From Chloroflexota bacterium (GTDB lineage Bacteria > Chloroflexota > Anaerolineae > Aggregatilineales > Phototrophicaceae), in assembly GCA_011523735.1 (NCBI GenBank), contig WTGB01000165.1, forward strand, positions 62,001 to 126,000: a stretch of 64,000 nt of DNA, in the 5' to 3' direction. Both the position numbers and the translations under genes were made by a program. The first letter of the stretch is position 1, and the number at the start of each line of letters is the position of its first letter. Below are positions 49,046-59,264 of the stretch, in pieces. Under the pieces are notes generated by a model, which did no database searches, had not been told where the DNA came from, and saw only the letters and a program-made list of their open reading frames with translations.

Positions 49046-50515
49046 TCAGATTTCGCCTTCTTCGCCAACTATGTGAATCTTTATAAGGTTCGTGCGACCG
49101 TCAATGCCGAAGGGCACCCCCGCAATGATAACCAGCCTGTCGCCACGCCGCACCAAGCCCTTGTCATGCGCTGCCCGAATGATGATGCTTATCATTTCGT
49201 CTATCGTCGTAAACTCTTCTACCAGCAGCGGCGTCACGCCCCAGACAAGCGCCATTCTTCGTTGTGTGGTTGCCATCGGCGTCATACAGAGGATTGGGGT
49301 TCTGGGCCTTTCTTTGGCCACGCGCCGAGTTGTATAGCCTGACATGCTGGTGGTTACAATCGCTTTCGGCTCGATCGCTTGCGAAATGTCGAATGTCGCT
49401 CGGCTAATTGCGATTGAACTGTCCTCGCGCGATTGGCTTGCGCGGATGCCTTCCATGGCGTCGGTGGCCAGTGTGCTGAAATTATGCAGGTTGCGCTCAG
49501 CGATTGTCGCAATCTCGCTCATCACTTCGACTGAGCGGACCGGATAGTTGCCACTAGCGCTTTCTGCGCTCAACATAATCGCATCCGTCCCGTCCAGAAT
49601 CGCGTTGTAAACATCGCTCGCCTCCGCGCGGGTCGGGCGCGGATTGTCTGTCATCGATTCCAGCATTTGCGTGGCCGTGATGACCGGCTTGGCCGCCGCA
49701 TTGCACAACTTGATTATCCGCTTCTGATGATAGGGCACTTCCTCCGCTGGCGTTTCAATGCCCAGGTCGCCGCGCGCCACCATAATGCCGTCGCAAATTT
49801 CAATGATCTCTTCGATATTCTCCAGCGCCTCGCCCATCTCGATTTTGGCGATGATCGCCGCATCTTTGCCCAGTTCTGCCATCAGCGTTTTGAGCTCGCG
49901 AATGTCGTTGGCACTGCGGACAAATGACATCGCGATATAGTCGCAGTCTTGAGCGAGCGCAAACCTAATGTCTTCGCGATCTTTTTCGGTTATGGCGGAA
50001 AGTGTCAAGCGGGCATTAGGCGCCGACACGCCCTTGCGCGGCTTTAGCGCCCCACCGACGACGACATTGCAGACGAGGTTCCGGCCATCGGCTTCTTTCA
50101 CGCGAAACTGCAAATTGCCATCATCCAGCAAGAGTATCGTGCCAGCCCGGATATCCCGCACAAATTCAGGATGCGGCAGCGATACCACTCCGTTCGATCC
50201 GACTACATCATCACTTGTCAGCGTAATAGTATCCCCTATATCCAATACCATTGGCTCGGGCTCAAACATTCCCAGCCGTATCTTGGGTCCCTGGATATCA
50301 CATAGGATAGCCACCACGCTGTCTTCTTCCGCGGAAATGCGGCGGATATGTTCGATTACTCTGCCGTGTGTTTCCCGGTCGCCATGCGAAAAATTGATGC
50401 GGGCGACATTCATGCCCGCGCGGATCATATCGCGCAAGACATCTGGTTCGCGGGATGCGGGACCGATTGTGGCTACGATCTTGGTGTGTTTGTTATCCAA
50501 TCTCGGTCGCACTCT
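49046..50515 (-). CDS. pyk: Pyruvate kinase
   Basis: This glycolytic enzyme of about 490 aa transfers phosphate from phosphoenolpyruvate to ADP. Signatures are 'KIVATIGPASREPDVLRDMI', 'GMNVARINFSHGD', and the active-site 'AIIAKIEMGEALENIEEII' with catalytic Lys. The C-terminal regulatory domain ends at the usual length; there is no extra PEP-utiliser domain. The start is uncertain: GTG 50515 has AAAGGGA five bases upstream, whereas the ORF-track GTG at 50536 has no clear site. It follows eno closely, forming an eno-pyk operon. Confidence 0.95.
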   Translation of the reverse strand, partial: RVRPRLDNKHTKIVATIGPASREPDVLRDMIRAGMNVARINFSHGDRETHGRVIEHIRRISAEEDSVVAILCDIQGPKIRLGMFEPEPMVLDIGDTITLTSDDVVGSNGVVSLPHPEFVRDIRAGTILLLDDGNLQFRVKEADGRNLVCNVVVGGALKPRKGVSAPNARLTLSAITEKDREDIRFALAQDCDYIAMSFVRSANDIRELKTLMAELGKDAAIIAKIEMGEALENIEEIIEICDGIMVARGDLGIETPAEEVPYHQKRIIKLCNAAAKPVITATQMLESMTDNPRPTRAEASDVYNAILDGTDAIMLSAESASGNYPVRSVEVMSEIATIAERNLHNFSTLATDAMEGIRASQSREDSSIAISRATFDISQAIEPKAIVTTSMSGYTTRRVAKERPRTPILCMTPMATTQRRMALVWGVTPLLVEEFTTIDEMISIIIRAAHDKGLVRRGDRLVIIAGVPFGIDGRTNLIKIHIVGEEGEI

Positions 50516-50541
50516 TGTCCCTTTCGAACTCGCCACAGCAC

Positions 50542-51837
<1,296 letters not shown>

Positions 51838-52469: not shown

Positions 52470-52506
52470 GAGATAATCTGTGGCAGTAAACAGAAACACG
52501 CGAATC

Positions 52507-53685
52507 ATGAAAACAAAACGCCAGGTCTACCTCGACTATTCCGCGTCCACGCCGGTCGATCCCCGCGTCTTGGAAGCGATGATGCCATATTTCAGCGAAG
52601 TCTATGGCAATCCTACTTCAGCGCATCGCTATGGACGGGCGGCTGAACGCGCCATCGAGGACGCCCGCGAAACCGTCGCGGCCATTCTCAACTGCCAGCC
52701 GGCCGAGATCATCTTCACCAGCGGTGGCTCGGAAAGCGACAACCTCGCGATCCGCGGCGCGGCTTGGCGGGCGCGGATGCATAATGCCCCCGCGCGGCTC
52801 ATCACATCGCCGGTGGAACACAGCGCCGTGACCAACACTATGCGGCAAATGAGCCAGCTTATGGGTTTCGAATCGGTCGTCTTGCCCGTCGATCGTTATG
52901 GGCTGGTCAATACATTTGCCTTTCGCGAAGCTTGTGAACAGGGCGGCGCTATCGCAAGCATCATCTACGCAAACAACGAACTGGGCAGCGTGAATGACTT
53001 GCCTGCTCTAGCAGCGGTCGCCAGGTCCAGCGGCATTCTATTTCATACCGACGCCGTGCAGGCCGGCGGGCAGTTGACTCTCGATGTCGAGCAGCTAGGT
53101 GTTGATATGCTCAGCCTTTCGGCGCATAAATTCTATGGACCAAAGGGCGTCGGCATACTCTACCTGCGAAAAGGCGTCGAGTTGGCGCCCACGCTTACCG
53201 GCGGGAGCCACGAACACGGACGCCGCGCCGGCACGCACAATACGCCTTTCATCATCGGCCTTGCCCGCGCGCTGGAATTGGCGCATCAAGAGAACGCGGA
53301 GCGACTCGCCCATTTTCAGCAGATGCGCGACAGACTGGTCAGTGGCGTCTTGAGTCGTGTCCCCGGCGCGCAATTGAGCGGTCACCCGGACAAACGCCTG
53401 CCATCTCACGCCAGCTTCATCTTCGCTGGCATTGATGCCAACGCGCTGTTGATTCACCTCGATATGAACGGCATCGCAGCCAGCAGCGGTTCAGCCTGCA
53501 AGACCGGCAATCCGGAACCATCCGAAATCTTGCTGGCGGTTGGCTATACCGCTGAACAAGCGAAGAGCGGCTTGCGCTTGTCAGTCGGCGCCCACACAAC
53601 CCAAGAGGACATCAATTACACTGTGGACGTACTTGTGAATGCCGTTGAGAAACTGAGCCTGTTGAATCGCGAGGGTCTGTCATGA
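52507..53685 (+). CDS. iscS: Cysteine desulfurase (IscS/NifS class)
   Basis: This is a 392-aa PLP enzyme from ATG 52507 (MKTKRQVYLDYSASTP); the ORF-track GTG at 52480 adds nine residues. The PLP lysine is in 'SLSAHKFYGPKGVGILYLRK', the PLP-contact His in 'SPVEHSAVTN', and the catalytic Cys in 'ASSGSACKTGNPEPSEILLA'. That is the class I loop type that can hand sulfur to partners. It overlaps mnmA by four bases (ATGA), so its main job is probably tRNA thiolation. It may also feed SufU, because no sufS lies in the suf cluster. Confidence 0.95.
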   Translation: MKTKRQVYLDYSASTPVDPRVLEAMMPYFSEVYGNPTSAHRYGRAAERAIEDARETVAAILNCQPAEIIFTSGGSESDNLAIRGAAWRARMHNAPARLITSPVEHSAVTNTMRQMSQLMGFESVVLPVDRYGLVNTFAFREACEQGGAIASIIYANNELGSVNDLPALAAVARSSGILFHTDAVQAGGQLTLDVEQLGVDMLSLSAHKFYGPKGVGILYLRKGVELAPTLTGGSHEHGRRAGTHNTPFIIGLARALELAHQENAERLAHFQQMRDRLVSGVLSRVPGAQLSGHPDKRLPSHASFIFAGIDANALLIHLDMNGIAASSGSACKTGNPEPSEILLAVGYTAEQAKSGLRLSVGAHTTQEDINYTVDVLVNAVEKLSLLNREGLS

Positions 53686-54809
53686 TCCGGTCAAATACGC
53701 GCGTCGTCGTCGCGATGAGCGGCGGTGTGGACAGCTCGGTCGCTGCCGCGCTCTTGGTCGAAGCCGGTTACGATGTCGTCGGCATGATGATGCGCCTCTG
53801 GTCCGATCCGGCTTTAGGCGGCGCTGAGCATAATCGCTGTTGTACGCCCGATCAAATGAGCGACGCCCGCCGTATCGCCGACAAGCTGGGCATTCCCTTC
53901 TACGTGCTGGATACGAAGGACATCTTCCGCCAAACGGTCGTTCAGTATTTCATCGATCAGCATCGCGATGGGTATACGCCTAATCCCTGCCTTGAATGCA
54001 ACCGCCGCATCCGCTTTGATTGGCTGCTGCGCAACGCTCTGGCACTGGATGCCGACTACCTGGCCACCGGTCACTACGCGCGTATCGCAACAGATGAAAA
54101 CGGTGACTGGCTTCTGCGCCGCGGTCTTGATGCAGATAAAGACCAGAGCTATGTCCTGAGTGTAATGAGCCAGGATCAACTCGGACGCACGCTCTTTCCA
54201 GTGGGCGAATATCCCAAGTCCGAAGTGCGGAAACTGGCCGCGGAACTCGGACTTGATGTCGCCAGCAAGAAAGATAGCCAGGACCTCTGCTTCCTGGGCA
54301 ATAGCGATTATCGCAATTTCCTGCGACTGCACGCCCCCGATGTTATAAAGCCCGGACCAATCGTGAACAGGGCCGGCGATGTGCTTGGCAAGCACCAGGG
54401 CCTGGCGAATTACACTATCGGGCAAAGAAAAGGCTTGGGGATCTCATCCCAAGAGCCTTTGTACGTCTTGGCAATGAACGACATCAGAAACGCTCTCGTC
54501 GTCGGCACTCGGGATCAGCTCGGCCGCGATACGCTGACCGCGGAGCATGTCAACTGGGTGAGCGGCGCGCCCCCGTCAGAATCCTTTCGCTGCCATGTCA
54601 AGATTCGTTACCGCGCCCAACCGCAACCAGCCACGATTGAAGTCAGCGCCGACGGTGTTATGCAGGTGCGCTTTGACGAGCCACAGCGCGATATCACGCC
54701 GGGACAAGCCGCTGTTGTCTATCAAGGCGATGTCTGCCTTGGTGGCGGTGTCATCGCCAAGTTTGAAGAGTTGGAGGGCGCTGCCCTCCAGCGTGAACCG
54801 GCCGTATGA
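53682..54809 (+). CDS. mnmA: tRNA-specific 2-thiouridylase MnmA
   Basis: The 375-aa enzyme thiolates U34 of Lys, Glu and Gln tRNAs. The PP-loop is 'VVAMSGGVDSSVAAALLVEA'. The catalytic cysteines are in 'GYTPNPCLECNRRIRFD' and 'KKDSQDLCFLGNSDYRNFL', and the C-terminal beta-barrel carries 'ITPGQAAVVYQGDVCLGGGV'. It begins inside the iscS stop (ATGA), a common desulfurase-thiouridylase coupling. Confidence 0.96.
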   Translation: MIRSNTRVVVAMSGGVDSSVAAALLVEAGYDVVGMMMRLWSDPALGGAEHNRCCTPDQMSDARRIADKLGIPFYVLDTKDIFRQTVVQYFIDQHRDGYTPNPCLECNRRIRFDWLLRNALALDADYLATGHYARIATDENGDWLLRRGLDADKDQSYVLSVMSQDQLGRTLFPVGEYPKSEVRKLAAELGLDVASKKDSQDLCFLGNSDYRNFLRLHAPDVIKPGPIVNRAGDVLGKHQGLANYTIGQRKGLGISSQEPLYVLAMNDIRNALVVGTRDQLGRDTLTAEHVNWVSGAPPSESFRCHVKIRYRAQPQPATIEVSADGVMQVRFDEPQRDITPGQAAVVYQGDVCLGGGVIAKFEELEGAALQREPAV

Positions 54810-54845: not shown

Positions 54846-55652
54846 TCACATTTGCAACCCAAACACCACATGGCTTATCTCACCTTGGAAAAGCAGCACA
54901 AGGGTCGTAGCCATGAGGATATAGGGAGCGTATGGTAAGGCCGTGAATCGCTTGTATCGGCGCTTGCGCAGGCGGGTTAGCGCCAAATACACGGCCGCTC
55001 CGGCGCCAGCGAGCGCGATCGCCAAGACTATCGCCACTAGTATGTTGGGAAATCCCAAGATTAACCCGGCGAGCCCCATGAGGTAAACATCGCCCAGACC
55101 AAACACAGGAGTGGCGACTCTCTTCACCAGTCCATCAAATAGCCGACCGCCCAAATATATGAGCGAAAAAGTCGCGCCCCCGCATAAGCCGCCGACAAGC
55201 GCTGATGCCAAGTTCGGCGGGCTCTGAGGAAAAACTGCCGCGTCAACAACAGCGAGCGCAGCCGCAAACATTACTGGCTTGATCAGTATCTGCCGCCGCT
55301 CCAAATCCACCACCGCGAGGAGTACAAATATCACGGCATAAGCCTGCCAGATTAGCCGCTGCCCGCTCGGCAAGGAGGCATCATCTCCCGTTACGAACTG
55401 CGTTATCGCCATCAGCCCGGCCAGAGTCAACTCGGTCAATGGATAGCGCCAGCTCAGCTTGGAGTGGGGCGGTTTGGCTTGCCATACTTCGAAGAGCAAT
55501 GCGGTGACCCCCAGCCAAGCATAGACCGGACGCCGGCTGCCATCTTCGTTGCGAGGAGGCCGCGGGAACCGTCCCGCTGGCAGTTCGTCAGCCAGCGCGT
55601 TGACCGCGCCGCCGACGAGCATACCAACTATGGCAATCAGAACGATGTCCAT
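54846..55652 (-). CDS. A24-family prepilin peptidase-like protein
   Basis: The 268-aa polytopic membrane protein has the two catalytic aspartates of type IV prepilin peptidases: 'LLAVVDLERRQI' and the GxGD motif 'PVFGLGDVYLMGLAGLILGF'. The N-terminal methylase region is short and lacks the CxxC zinc pair, so it may be a peptidase without N-methylation. No pilin or pilus ATPase gene is in the window. It ends the leftward five-gene operon that starts at 57852. Confidence 0.85.
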   Translation of the reverse strand: MDIVLIAIVGMLVGGAVNALADELPAGRFPRPPRNEDGSRRPVYAWLGVTALLFEVWQAKPPHSKLSWRYPLTELTLAGLMAITQFVTGDDASLPSGQRLIWQAYAVIFVLLAVVDLERRQILIKPVMFAAALAVVDAAVFPQSPPNLASALVGGLCGGATFSLIYLGGRLFDGLVKRVATPVFGLGDVYLMGLAGLILGFPNILVAIVLAIALAGAGAAVYLALTRLRKRRYKRFTALPYAPYILMATTLVLLFQGEISHVVFGLQM

Positions 55653-55672
55653 GGTCGTGCACCCGGCAGCCT

Positions 55673-56212
55673 CTAAGGCGCGGGCATGAGTTCTGGCGCG
55701 GGTGGCAGCAGCGCGACCGAAATCGCGACCAGAAGCAGCAAGCTCGCGATACCCACAATCACAATGGAGACTCGCTGTCGCGCCGAGAATTGGCTGCCGT
55801 CATCGTCGGAGGTATCGGTGTCAAAAACCAATTCGACAGGCGCGGCTGACAGACCGTCAATCCGCCAGAGCTTCAGCTTCGGCTTGGCGCGCTCTAGCGA
55901 TACGATCAAATGCAGCAGCTTGGGATCCAGCGCCTCGTTAATATCCGTCCGCGATGGAATCGGCGCAGACCGCGGATGTGAATGGTAAACCCCCATCCAT
56001 TCCAGACCGTCAGCATCGATAGCCTTTAGCGCCGTAAGCTGTTCTTCCGGATCGAACTGAAAGCGGTCATCTCGGTTTGCCGCGGCGTTGCGGAGCGAAA
56101 TGGCGCGGCTTATGGTCCTATAGTCGCCGGCAAGCACACCACAGGCTTCATGCGGCGCTTCGGCTTCGGCATGATCGGCAATCTGACGCGCGACATCGTA
56201 GGGAATCCTCAT
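55673..56212 (-). CDS. JAMM/Mov34 metalloprotease with C-terminal membrane anchor
   Basis: This is a 179-aa protein from ATG 56212; the ORF track adds 61 residues overlapping the upstream gene. The JAMM motif is complete: Glu in 'PHEACGVLAGDY' and H-x-H-x7-S-x2-D in 'YHSHPRSAPIPSRTD'. A single C-terminal membrane segment follows ('VSIVIVGIASLLLLVAISVA'). JAMM enzymes cleave isopeptide or sulfur-carrier tails. No ThiS/ThiF partner is adjacent. The anchor is unusual for bacterial JAMM proteins. Confidence 0.88.
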   Translation of the reverse strand: MRIPYDVARQIADHAEAEAPHEACGVLAGDYRTISRAISLRNAAANRDDRFQFDPEEQLTALKAIDADGLEWMGVYHSHPRSAPIPSRTDINEALDPKLLHLIVSLERAKPKLKLWRIDGLSAAPVELVFDTDTSDDDGSQFSARQRVSIVIVGIASLLLLVAISVALLPPAPELMPAP

Positions 56213-56219
56213 CGCATGA

Positions 56220-56582
56220 TTAGCTCGCTTCTGGGGGAATCCGAAAGCAGATTTCGGCTGCGTCTTGGGGTGGATCTCGCGATTCGTAATACAACTCTGC
56301 CGCCAGCTTGTAATCTCCGGTCGGGTCGTCCAAGCCGCGAATATGCATAGTGAATTCGTTGTCGAAATGCATCGTGGCGATGACATCCAAATCACTGACC
56401 ATCAAACCATCGAATCTTCGCGCGGTTATTAGCAGGTTCGGCCGCTCTTGAAAAGGTGTCAGCTTGAGGTTGACCTTCACGCGAAAGCGATCTTTGTAGG
56501 GCTTAGCGCTGAGCTCCTCGATCTTGACCCTGTGCTTCGGCTGCGGCACCAAATTGGCATCGTTAAACAGATTGATTTCCAC
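56220..56582 (-). CDS. Conserved hypothetical beta-rich protein, JAMM neighbour
   Basis: The 120-aa soluble protein alternates charged and hydrophobic residues as in a beta-sandwich ('RFRVKVNLKLTPFQERPNLL', 'TMHIRGLDDPTGDYKLAAEL'). I recognise no family and see no active-site motif. It lies one base after the ACT gene and seven before the JAMM gene. That makes it a candidate substrate or partner of the JAMM protease. It has no ubiquitin-like Gly-Gly tail. Confidence 0.75.
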   Translation of the reverse strand: MEINLFNDANLVPQPKHRVKIEELSAKPYKDRFRVKVNLKLTPFQERPNLLITARRFDGLMVSDLDVIATMHFDNEFTMHIRGLDDPTGDYKLAAELYYESRDPPQDAAEICFRIPPEAS

Positions 56583-56583
56583 G

Positions 56584-57027
56584 TTATCCTCGTCTGATCT
56601 CGTTCTGCAGCGCCCGCAAGGTCCTCATTGCCTTTGAGTAATCTTCCGCTGGCACAAAGATGTGATCGCGAGAAAACGCGGCGAAGGCGAGTATGGGAAT
56701 GTTCGCCTTCGCCAGCGCGTCGCTGATATGCGCGATGAAACCGATCAAGTCTGGCTCGAGGGCTTCTGCAAATGTGATTAACCGGTAGCTTTGTTCACTT
56801 ATGCTCGCCGCGTGCAGACGCTTGCTAAAGTTCAGGTGTACATCCTCGCGGAGCAAAAGTGTCACTTCGTCTTTGTCGACAAGGAGCGCGGAGAACGCAA
56901 TTCCCGCTTCCGCAAGGATTGCGGCTCCCAAAGTAATGGCATTCGCCGGCAAACGCAGAACCCGATACACCTGCTCATCAGTATGAAACGCTGTGCTGCT
57001 TAGAACTTGCTCTGCTGTTTGTGTCAC
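56584..57027 (-). CDS. ACT-domain protein (COG3603/ACT_7 type)
   Basis: The 147-aa protein has an N-terminal half with 'KDEVTLLLREDVHLNFSKRL' and a C-terminal ACT_7-like half, 'LIGFIAHISDALAKANIPIL' followed by 'AFSRDHIFVPAEDYSKAMRT'. This is the family related to CASTOR-type amino-acid sensors. It probably binds an amino acid and modulates a partner. It is second in the operon, six bases after the ParB-like gene. Confidence 0.85.
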   Translation of the reverse strand: MTQTAEQVLSSTAFHTDEQVYRVLRLPANAITLGAAILAEAGIAFSALLVDKDEVTLLLREDVHLNFSKRLHAASISEQSYRLITFAEALEPDLIGFIAHISDALAKANIPILAFAAFSRDHIFVPAEDYSKAMRTLRALQNEIRRG

Positions 57028-57033
57028 AGGCCT

Positions 57034-57852
57034 CTACTCGGCGAATTGGAAGGTGGATTCGGCATAGTACCGTATGCTGCGGGCGGCGTATTGCTCTCGT
57101 AGCCATTCTTGCAGTTTTTTGTTCTTTGTATCGAGCGGGCTATCCGCGCGCAAACGCGCCATCGGATAATTCACATTGAGCGCTCGCCCATGAACAATGT
57201 GACGGCTAACCCCCGGCGGAAGATAAGCGCCTTGCAAAGCCGCTTCGATGATATCCTGCGGCTGATAAGCGGGAAACATGATCAGAGCGAATCCGCTGGG
57301 GAACAGTGACCAAATCTGGCCGGGATCGCTGAGCGGCGTCCGGTAAAGCGCCGCCGAATTGTGATAAGCGCTTACTACCTGAGTCAGTGTCGCATTTCTT
57401 TCCGCCAAACCTTCGGCCACCGCATGGATGGAGTACACCGGACCTTCTCGCAATAAGATTTGCGCCACCGCGCTTGAATCCCAACCAGAGCGGATATTGG
57501 TATTTCTGATCGCTTCCAATTCTCGCAGCAGCCGCTTGGAATCCCAATCAGCCACGACATGCTGCCAGACGCCAAGCTCGACATAATCGCTTTCGTAATC
57601 CAAGATCTGAACGAGAATATGTTCAAAGCCGAGCAGGCGCATCGATAAATGACGATTCGACCCGTCCATAAGCACGTATCGCCCATCGGGCAACTCAGCG
57701 ACAAGTGGCGGATTCGTAAAGTACTCGGCTCTCTTCAGCCGCTTCATCAATGGTTGCGATCTCTGTACATCGCTTTTTTCATGCGGCAATATGGCATCAA
57801 CACAGACGATTCGCAGTTCGGGCGAAGGCGCGCTTATCGGATTCGAAAACAT
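57034..57852 (-). CDS. ParB/SbnI-SerK-like protein
   Basis: The 272-aa protein has a ParB-type nucleotide-binding N-terminus: 'IVCVDAILPHEKSDVQRSQP' followed by 'LPDGRYVLMDGSNRHLSMRL'. In that motif the family's DGxxR box appears as DGSNRH. Unlike ParB, no HTH follows; the C-terminal half is unassigned. The closest described relatives in concept are SbnI/SerK free-serine kinases and ParB-like CTPases. Serine kinase activity would fit the following ACT gene, but that is inference. It is the first gene of the operon. Confidence 0.75.
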   Translation of the reverse strand: MFSNPISAPSPELRIVCVDAILPHEKSDVQRSQPLMKRLKRAEYFTNPPLVAELPDGRYVLMDGSNRHLSMRLLGFEHILVQILDYESDYVELGVWQHVVADWDSKRLLRELEAIRNTNIRSGWDSSAVAQILLREGPVYSIHAVAEGLAERNATLTQVVSAYHNSAALYRTPLSDPGQIWSLFPSGFALIMFPAYQPQDIIEAALQGAYLPPGVSRHIVHGRALNVNYPMARLRADSPLDTKNKKLQEWLREQYAARSIRYYAESTFQFAE

Positions 57853-57954
57853 CGGTTTCCCGAGTAAAATGTGCTAGAGATCGCGACTAGCGTAACATGA
57901 ACTGGGGCGCGGGGCAATTGTGCTGACGCTTAAAGCGGTGCGAGGATCGATATA

Positions 57955-58476
57955 ATGGGCGCAAAGCAGCAGGGTGCTGATGCTACGGGCGGTCGATGGC
58001 TGACCATCCCGCGAACTTTGTCTTTCATTTTGAACGGCGACGATGTGCTGTTAATGAAGCGCGCAAGCCATAAACGTGTTTTCCCCAATCAATACAATGG
58101 TCTGGGCGGTCACATCGAACGCGATGAAGATCCGGCAAGCGGCGCCATCCGCGAGATCGTCGAGGAATCTGGCTTGGAGGTGCATTCCCTGCGTCTGCGC
58201 AGCATCCACAATATCGACGCCGGCGAAAAAACCGGAATCATCCTCTTTGTATACACTGCCATAAGCGAGAGCCGCGAGGTCTCATGGCATAGCGCTGAAG
58301 GTACTCTAGAGTGGGTGCCGACGGATCGAATCAACGAGCTCGACCTGGTTGAGGATCTGCCGCATATCTTGCCGCGAATCCTTGAGATGGATGCTGATGA
58401 GCCGCCTTTTTCTGTCCTCGTCAGCTACGATGCGGCCGACCAGATTGTCCTCCAGTTCCGAGAAGGTGACCAATGA
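57955..58476 (+). CDS. Nudix hydrolase
   Basis: The 173-aa protein carries the Nudix box 'GHIERDEDPASGAIREIVEE' continuing into SGL, with 'RVFPNQYNGLGG' before it. The spacing resembles 8-oxo-dGTP diphosphatases (MutT/NUDT1 type), but the substrate is not certain. A GAGGA site precedes the ATG. It overlaps the next gene by four bases. Confidence 0.93.
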   Translation: MGAKQQGADATGGRWLTIPRTLSFILNGDDVLLMKRASHKRVFPNQYNGLGGHIERDEDPASGAIREIVEESGLEVHSLRLRSIHNIDAGEKTGIILFVYTAISESREVSWHSAEGTLEWVPTDRINELDLVEDLPHILPRILEMDADEPPFSVLVSYDAADQIVLQFREGDQ

Positions 58477-58913
58477 CGCAAATAGCGCAGCCCGCCAATT
58501 CAAATGCTTTGGCTCCAATCGAAACGAAGAAACGGAGCCGCCTGCGTCGCCTGGGCTGCGGGCTGATTCTCGCGCTCTGGTTCCTACTTTTGTTGACGCC
58601 CTGCGCGCTTTTCTACCTAGCGGCGAATGGCGAAATTCGCCTGTATCATGCTGATATTCCTCAGCCCCATTCACACCCTCTGTTGCTGATATCACTCATA
58701 AACGAAATGGATAACCGGGGCCTGCAATTCCTGCGATCCACGACCGTCGGCGAATTCGACGATACCGCAGTCTGCGTCGAAACAGCTGTCAATTACTTGC
58801 TTTGGGAGTCAAGTAGCGGAAATCAAGACGTAACCTACTGCGACTGTTACACGCGCGCGGACGCCGCTTCAGCTTGGACCTTGATAGAGACGCATTTGTC
58901 GCCTTGCGCGTAG
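58473..58913 (+). CDS. Single-pass membrane protein, function unknown
   Basis: The 146-aa protein has a basic cytosolic N-terminus ('ETKKRSRLRRLG'), one membrane helix ('LILALWFLLLLTPCALFYLA') and an external domain with several cysteines ('AVNYLLWESSSGNQDVTYCD'). The family is not known to me. The start codon overlaps the Nudix stop (ATGA), so they are coupled. Confidence 0.78.
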   Translation: MTQIAQPANSNALAPIETKKRSRLRRLGCGLILALWFLLLLTPCALFYLAANGEIRLYHADIPQPHSHPLLLISLINEMDNRGLQFLRSTTVGEFDDTAVCVETAVNYLLWESSSGNQDVTYCDCYTRADAASAWTLIETHLSPCA

Positions 58914-58952
58914 AATAATTGTGGCGACTTAAACCTTTGGCGGAGCGCGATA

Positions 58953-59264
58953 ATGGACTTGCTGCAAAACATTGATCCAGCGCACTTGCCATACATAGCT
59001 GCTGGCTGTGCCTTGCTTTGCATCGTGGTCTTCGTCATCGGCTTCCTCTTGCAGGCTGTCAGCGGCATCTTTAACGTCGCTCTTGGCTTGTTTGAACTCC
59101 TCATTGACCTGCTGCAAGGTGGACCCGTGGCTTGGTGCGGTTGCGTCGTTCTGCTCCTTGGCTTCGTCGCATTTGCCGGCGGGATATTCCTGCTGCTCAA
59201 CGCTCCCGAAAGCTGTGCCGCTCACCCCACGCGTTTCTGCCAGTGGTTCGGTTTTCTGCCTTAG
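58953..59264 (+). CDS. Small two-helix membrane protein, function unknown
   Basis: The 103-aa protein is almost all hydrophobic: 'YIAAGCALLCIVVFVIGFLL', then a middle amphipathic region, then 'VVLLLGFVAFAGGIFLLLNA'. The Cys-containing tail is 'HPTRFCQWFGFLP'. It follows the preceding gene by 39 bases. No family is recognised. The long minus-strand ORF across this locus (58929-59588) is a shadow. Confidence 0.65.
   Translation: MDLLQNIDPAHLPYIAAGCALLCIVVFVIGFLLQAVSGIFNVALGLFELLIDLLQGGPVAWCGCVVLLLGFVAFAGGIFLLLNAPESCAAHPTRFCQWFGFLP

Follow-up and report, generated by a model that had tools for sequence, protein, structure and literature searches.

The window analysed here is a stretch of 64,000 nucleotides from a Chloroflexota bacterium. 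At positions 54846-57852, it carries five genes that a sequence-only reading had described as an operon with spacings of 6, 1, 7 and 20 bases. An ORF check of the window confirmed these gaps and the location of all five ORFs on the minus strand. The genes and the features next to them are as follows:

57034..57852, minus strand: gene 1, SerK/SbnI-like free serine kinase homologue, 272 aa (SbnI/SerK profile matches, fold, E25; motif D63-G-S-N66-R67)
56584..57027, minus strand: gene 2, ACT_7 (CASTOR-like) predicted amino-acid sensor, 147 aa (Pfam)
56220..56582, minus strand: gene 3, termed X120, 120-aa Ig-like beta-sandwich protein, GTG start (conservation, model)
55673..56212, minus strand: gene 4, JAMM/MPN+ metallohydrolase, 179 aa (Prok-JAB; E22, H77-S-H79-P, S87, D90)
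55700..55771, minus strand: transmembrane anchor at the C-terminus of the JAMM protein together with its LLPP tail, approximately residues 148-171 (resembling a stand-alone 62-aa protein beside A24 in another family)
54846..55652, minus strand: gene 5, PilD-like A24 prepilin peptidase, 268 aa (PF01478)
57853..57954, no strand: 102 bp separating the operon from the divergent NUDIX gene, inferred likely promoter region
57955..58476, plus strand: NUDIX hydrolase, conserved divergent neighbour that we do not count as a member of the module (67 of 80 loci have it within 1.5 kb)
53682..54809, plus strand: MnmA, convergent neighbour of the A24 gene, conserved in several families (IscS alongside at 52480-53685)

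The likeliest start of the JAMM gene is the ATG at 56212, as the longer GTG ORF (56395) would overlap gene 3. A promoter scan of 57853..57954 yielded no significant motif, with scores at shuffle level, and an Rfam scan revealed no RNA near the operon. The stretch 57955-59264 holds the NUDIX gene and genes for two small proteins of membrane type (146 and 103 aa), which in most relatives run away from the operon and may be co-regulated. Enolase and pyruvate kinase genes at 49046-51837 lie on the same strand, and their synteny with the operon holds throughout the family.

Conservation of the operon and its two parts

SerK-like genes were present in 66 of 81 related genomes. The conservation scan was queried with SerK, and the best 80 of 240 loci were analysed, which does not exhaust other phyla. 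Among these 80 loci, all from Anaerolineae, the full order SerK-ACT-X120-JAMM-A24 was kept in 58 (53, plus 5 near contig ends), and the partial orders mostly coincided with contig ends or lay outside the window's family. Thus, random co-localisation was refuted: the five-gene order is far beyond chance, the operon is real and its genes are not scattered in sister genomes. In the same best 80 of 240 loci, relatives that keep the order diverge down to about 41-45% SerK identity, and the named GTDB relatives are nearly all Chloroflexota/Anaerolineae MAGs. The flanks are mostly conserved as well, with NUDIX divergent and MnmA/IscS convergent. Of the five proteins, X120 varies least within the window's genus, with mostly 72-84% identity to the window, compared with about 48-71% for JAMM, about 48-66% for ACT and about 37-69% for A24. 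A 1.0-Mb contig titled Pleurocapsa minor, i.e., named as a cyanobacterium (JAHHHY010000001, locus L160), also carries the Chloroflexota five-gene operon; the MAG is probably mixed or wrongly labelled.

Beyond the window's family, the core that is conserved comprises SerK-(ACT)-X120, with neither JAMM nor A24 next to it. In families f2, f4 and f6, JAMM and A24 genes are found in the vicinity of each other and of MnmA, separated by unrelated genes and without SerK. JAMM and A24 make up an older pair of their own, which came to be joined to the SerK module in the window's family. A breakpoint between ACT and X120 was found in one relative (G043); in another (G037), the interval from NUDIX to X120 contains neither SerK nor ACT. 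It is quite possible, if not the outcome we would bet on, that the serine-kinase module and the JAMM-A24 pair are co-transcribed simply as neighbours and have no joint function, as the location of SerK-X120 elsewhere in f2, f4 and f6 would have it; the retention of the joined order in 58 of the 80 loci over wide divergence argues against this. Such an arrangement would be compatible with the explanation preferred below for the core.

Gene 1 and its serine and cysteine context

Free serine kinases are known in a small number of archaea and in the synthesis of staphylococcal siderophores. Gene 1 matched the NCBIfam profiles of SbnI and SerK with 66 and 35 bits, respectively, i.e., far below the equivalog cut-offs of 350 and 380 bits. 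Its AlphaFold model (pLDDT 88.9) showed a two-domain ParB-like fold over the full length of the protein and a full-length match only to free serine kinases (SbnI, TMt 0.79-0.82; SerK, 0.71-0.78). All of the top nine PDB matches were SbnI/SerK entries (TMt 0.71-0.82), among them the SerK homologue from P. furiosus, while ParB, Noc and sulfiredoxin structures matched little beyond the N-terminal domain (for ParB/Noc, TMq about 0.25, mostly over about 80 columns). E25 aligns with SbnI E20 and SerK E30 and is invariant in 29 sequences; D63 and many polar residues are invariant, too, and PDB entry titles name the SerK mutants E30A/E30Q. The roles of the SbnI residues are presumed here from the alignment and PDB entry titles. 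The DGVHR motif of SbnI reads DG[SA]NR in nearly all members of the gene 1 family, with Asn for His, and DGATR in SerA fusions. On sequence and model, gene 1 is best described as a free-serine-kinase homologue with the catalytic Glu kept. Hence, the initial label "ParB/SerK-like" holds for a SerK-like nucleotide-dependent protein and fails for ParB: gene 1 as a ParB/Noc CTPase DNA clamp, a type marked by a ParB family domain, an HTH and a C-terminal dimerisation domain, was rejected, since no ParB Pfam model matched and the fold is that of the serine kinases SbnI and SerK.

Fusions and neighbours of SerK point to serine/phosphoserine metabolism. At locus L201, a single protein combines PGDH (SerA; residues 8-320, 401 bits) with SbnI (residues 317-584, 110 bits), and the gene behind it is class V aminotransferase-like, as read from its sequence. 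A SerA-SerK fusion was also found in a second genome (L207); since the two have sequence in common in the SerA part, they may go back to one event. The SerK gene of L200 overlaps one for cystathionine beta-synthase (552 bits). X120 lies a few kb from serC/serA in several Anaerolineaceae (serC confirmed in L188, serA in L191).

In family f3, the operon begins with DUF1015 (PF06245, 300 bits), continues with ACT and X120 and is often followed by a Ser/Thr protein kinase gene. DUF1015 and SerK were nearly exclusive, with DUF1015 in 3 of 66 SerK-positive and 11 of 15 SerK-negative genomes, and X120 directly follows a DUF1015-like gene in L195 (read from sequence). The order DUF1015-ACT-X120-Ser/Thr kinase suggests a serine-related role for DUF1015. 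Homology between SerK and DUF1015 was considered and given up for lack of hhalign support and of a PDB match, which leaves a similar motif (DGHHR) and a shared position in the operon. The gene order with the Ser/Thr kinase is seen in L177, L180 and L181, from a family other than the window's within the same taxonomic order, and a DUF1015-like gene adjoins the SerA/SerC region near X120 in L191.

Serine acetyltransferase was distributed differently. CysE exceeded the cut-off in 9 of 66 SerK-positive versus 10 of 15 SerK-negative relatives (Fisher p=8e-5, ignoring phylogeny). In a phylum sample, the counts were 2 of 16 versus 68 of 184 (p=0.057, Fisher, likewise ignoring phylogeny) and, with CysE scored at more than 150 bits, a limit set once the hit list had been inspected, 3 of 16 versus 107 of 184 (p=0.003). 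Family f8 has both SerK and CysE. Canonical SerC_1 was over the cut-off in 0 of 81 genomes, a scan that could miss alternative SerC types. SerB also exceeded its cut-off in 0 of 81 genomes, all matches lying below it; this cut-off is strict, being reached by only half of the control genomes, and alternative SerB types could be missed. As the matches were generic and the cut-off was strict in the control genomes, SerB absence was dropped as evidence.

Contig C149 of the window genome carries genes for a CysO-like protein (SAMP1-like, just below the cut-off), for MoeZ/MoeB and for a soluble JAMM similar to Mec, and CysM is encoded on C165; CysM and CysO lie on contigs other than that of the operon. 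In the genome G072, CysM, JAMM (Mec) and CysO-like genes stand in a row. In M. tuberculosis, O-phospho-L-serine (OPS) is the substrate of CysM, which works with CysO, and Mec releases the cysteine from CysO (PMC3227635). T. kodakarensis, which has no clear serine acetyltransferase, relies on SerK (PMC5120207). SepRS/SepCysS was considered from the literature as an alternative route (PMC5424206). The CysE/SerC pattern, the CysM, CysO, MoeZ and Mec genes and the mycobacterial and T. kodakarensis parallels together led us to infer that OPS comes from a dedicated kinase. On balance, we favour the explanation that the operon is a serine-kinase module for phosphoserine/cysteine metabolism, feeding CysM-CysO-Mec instead of the CysE route. 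The low SbnI/SerK profile scores, the Asn in the motif, the neglect of phylogeny in the Fisher tests, the occurrence of both SerK and CysE in f8, the SerC and SerB types that could be missed, the position of CysM and CysO outside the operon and the reported binding of CTP rather than ATP by a SerK-like protein (PMC12704722) weigh against it.

Alternatively, the kinase might act in serine use, with serine converted to OPS, which an aminotransferase and SerA would turn into 3-phosphoglycerate for onward conversion via enolase and pyruvate kinase, or in the reverse direction, with serine made from OPS. The SerA-SerK fusion beside the aminotransferase-like gene (L201), the syntenic eno and pyk genes near the operon, SerB over the cut-off in 0 of 81 genomes and the proximity of serK to genes for SerA and aminotransferases in Desulfurococcales (PMC5120207) would fit such a role. 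However, most SerK-positive genomes lack CysE, CysM/CysO/Mec are present and no canonical SerC was found in the window's order (81 genomes), and we regard this alternative as unlikely. Less probable still is that gene 1 is a pseudo-enzyme, i.e., a nucleotide-binding regulator devoid of kinase activity in a sensing complex with ACT and X120. The His-to-Asn exchange in the DGxHR-type motif would agree with this, and a SerK-like protein has been reported to bind CTP rather than ATP, the ParB fold being reusable without catalysis (PMC12704722). The invariance of E25, D63 and many polar residues, the fusion to SerA, the near-exclusive occurrence with DUF1015 and the trend opposite to CysE speak against a loss of catalysis.

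The ACT, X120, JAMM and A24 proteins

The proposal of an ACT sensor for gene 2 was borne out by an ACT_7 domain (PF13840, 49 bits) and a match to CASTOR2 (7e-06). X120 matched no family in Pfam or NCBIfam and was confined to the class Anaerolineae among the genomes searched. Its model (pLDDT 92.4) is a seven-stranded sandwich resembling the Ig domains of GH2. The sequence-only reading had suggested that the 120-aa protein may be the substrate of the JAMM protease. A ubiquitin-like substrate (beta-grasp, C-terminal GG) was rejected, since the model is Ig-like and the GG end is not conserved, being present in 3 of 71 sequences. In addition, X120 occurred in six genomes without a Prok-JAB match (G050, G057, G063, G067, G068 and G073). 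Fold and occurrence therefore indicate that X120 is not an obligatory JAMM substrate; its linkage suggests a partner of the kinase and the ACT protein.

Gene 4 is the membrane JAMM protein that had been predicted, with a Prok-JAB match of 84 bits and one C-terminal hydrophobic (TM) segment. The JAMM Glu and the HSHP-x(n)-S-x2-D zinc motif are present in the window, and the pattern is kept in 58 of 60 sequences. In family f4, JAMM is soluble, and a separate 62-aa protein with one TM segment is encoded 3 bp before A24; this protein matched the tail of the JAMM profile of the window's family at about 1e-10 in a two-sequence search. A similar TM-LLPP stretch precedes A24 in family f5 without a full JAMM. 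Because of these two arrangements, the tail-anchored JAMM of the window's family looks, by sequence, like a fusion with an A24-linked membrane peptide. The operon JAMM is not linked to CysO/CysM, in contrast to the C149 paralogue. On another contig of the window genome (C78, locus L209:2714-5950), nucleotidyltransferase-like, E1/E2-like and JAMM genes stand in a row and resemble, as read from sequence, a CBASS Cap2/Cap3-type defence locus.

Gene 5 was likewise correctly named a prepilin peptidase (Peptidase_A24, 30 bits, PF01478 over the cut-off), and the catalytic Asp residues D116 and G-x-G-D188 are conserved. Since it is the only PF01478 prepilin peptidase gene found in the window genome, the A24 enzyme is probably housekeeping.

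A small-molecule-controlled proteolytic switch, as had been speculated, in which JAMM cuts X120 or an X120 conjugate under ACT/SerK control with A24 downstream, is very improbable: X120-JAMM-A24 do remain linked at loci from which SerK-ACT has moved (G043, L174) or where it is missing beside them (G037, L175), but X120 is Ig-like with no conserved GG and occurs in the six genomes listed above, JAMM is not adjacent in several families, the SerK fusions and neighbours point elsewhere and A24 probably serves housekeeping.

Proposed role and comparison with known systems

The favoured serine-kinase module builds directly on the operon and its conservation, homology, the predicted fold, the catalytic Glu, the SerA-SerK fusion and gene presence or absence. 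As for activity, substrate and direction, the SbnI/SerK-family kinase would phosphorylate free serine to OPS. The ACT protein may sense an amino acid as its ligand, presumably serine or cysteine, and X120 may serve as a small Ig-like partner, so that kinase, ACT and X120 would form the OPS-making module. OPS would most likely feed the CysM-CysO-Mec cysteine route, with serine phosphorylation replacing CysE-type acetylation. The membrane-anchored JAMM, a relative of Mec, might, speculatively, release cysteine or another amide-linked group as its substrate at the membrane.

A more far-reaching version is conceivable, though we would give it rather low odds: many Anaerolineae would make cysteine by a kinase route undescribed in bacteria, with an SbnI-like kinase, ACT regulation and an essential Ig-like X120 subunit replacing CysE and passing OPS to CysM/CysO/Mec, and one family would have added the membrane-anchored JAMM beside its sole prepilin peptidase as an extra CysO-conjugate hydrolase. 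An ACT-linked serine kinase that is widespread in Chloroflexota and tends to occur without CysE would fill a gap in cysteine synthesis in a large uncultured group. It would also give a first testable role to DUF1015 and to the new protein family X120, and the likely misreading of such genes as ParB-type is corrected.

Gene 1 shares the full-length fold, the 66-bit match and the catalytic Glu with SbnI of staphyloferrin B synthesis in Staphylococcus, but differs by Asn instead of His in the DGxHR-type motif, by its location outside a siderophore cluster and by its partners ACT and X120. With the ADP-dependent SerK of Thermococcus, it has the fold, the Glu30 equivalent and the lack of a clear serine acetyltransferase in common (PMC5120207); unlike SerK, it is bacterial, about 16% identical and encoded in an operon with ACT and X120. 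The paper of 2016 found serK close to SerA in some archaea, with aminotransferase genes also nearby in Desulfurococcales, and reported no clear bacterial SerK homologues (PMC5120207). Gene 2 shares the PF13840 domain with the CASTOR/ACT_7 arginine sensors, but is a stand-alone bacterial protein of 147 aa. Gene 5 has the catalytic Asp and GxGD of the PilD/TadV A24 peptidases, but lacks the Cys-rich zinc motif in its N-terminal part and sits behind JAMM. JAMM chemistry is common to the operon and the mycobacterial CysM-CysO-Mec system (PMC3227635), and genes for CysM, MoeZ, a CysO-like protein and a soluble JAMM similar to Mec are present in the window genome. In contrast to mycobacterial Mec, the operon JAMM is a membrane-anchored paralogue that does not lie beside CysO, and a dedicated serine kinase is added.
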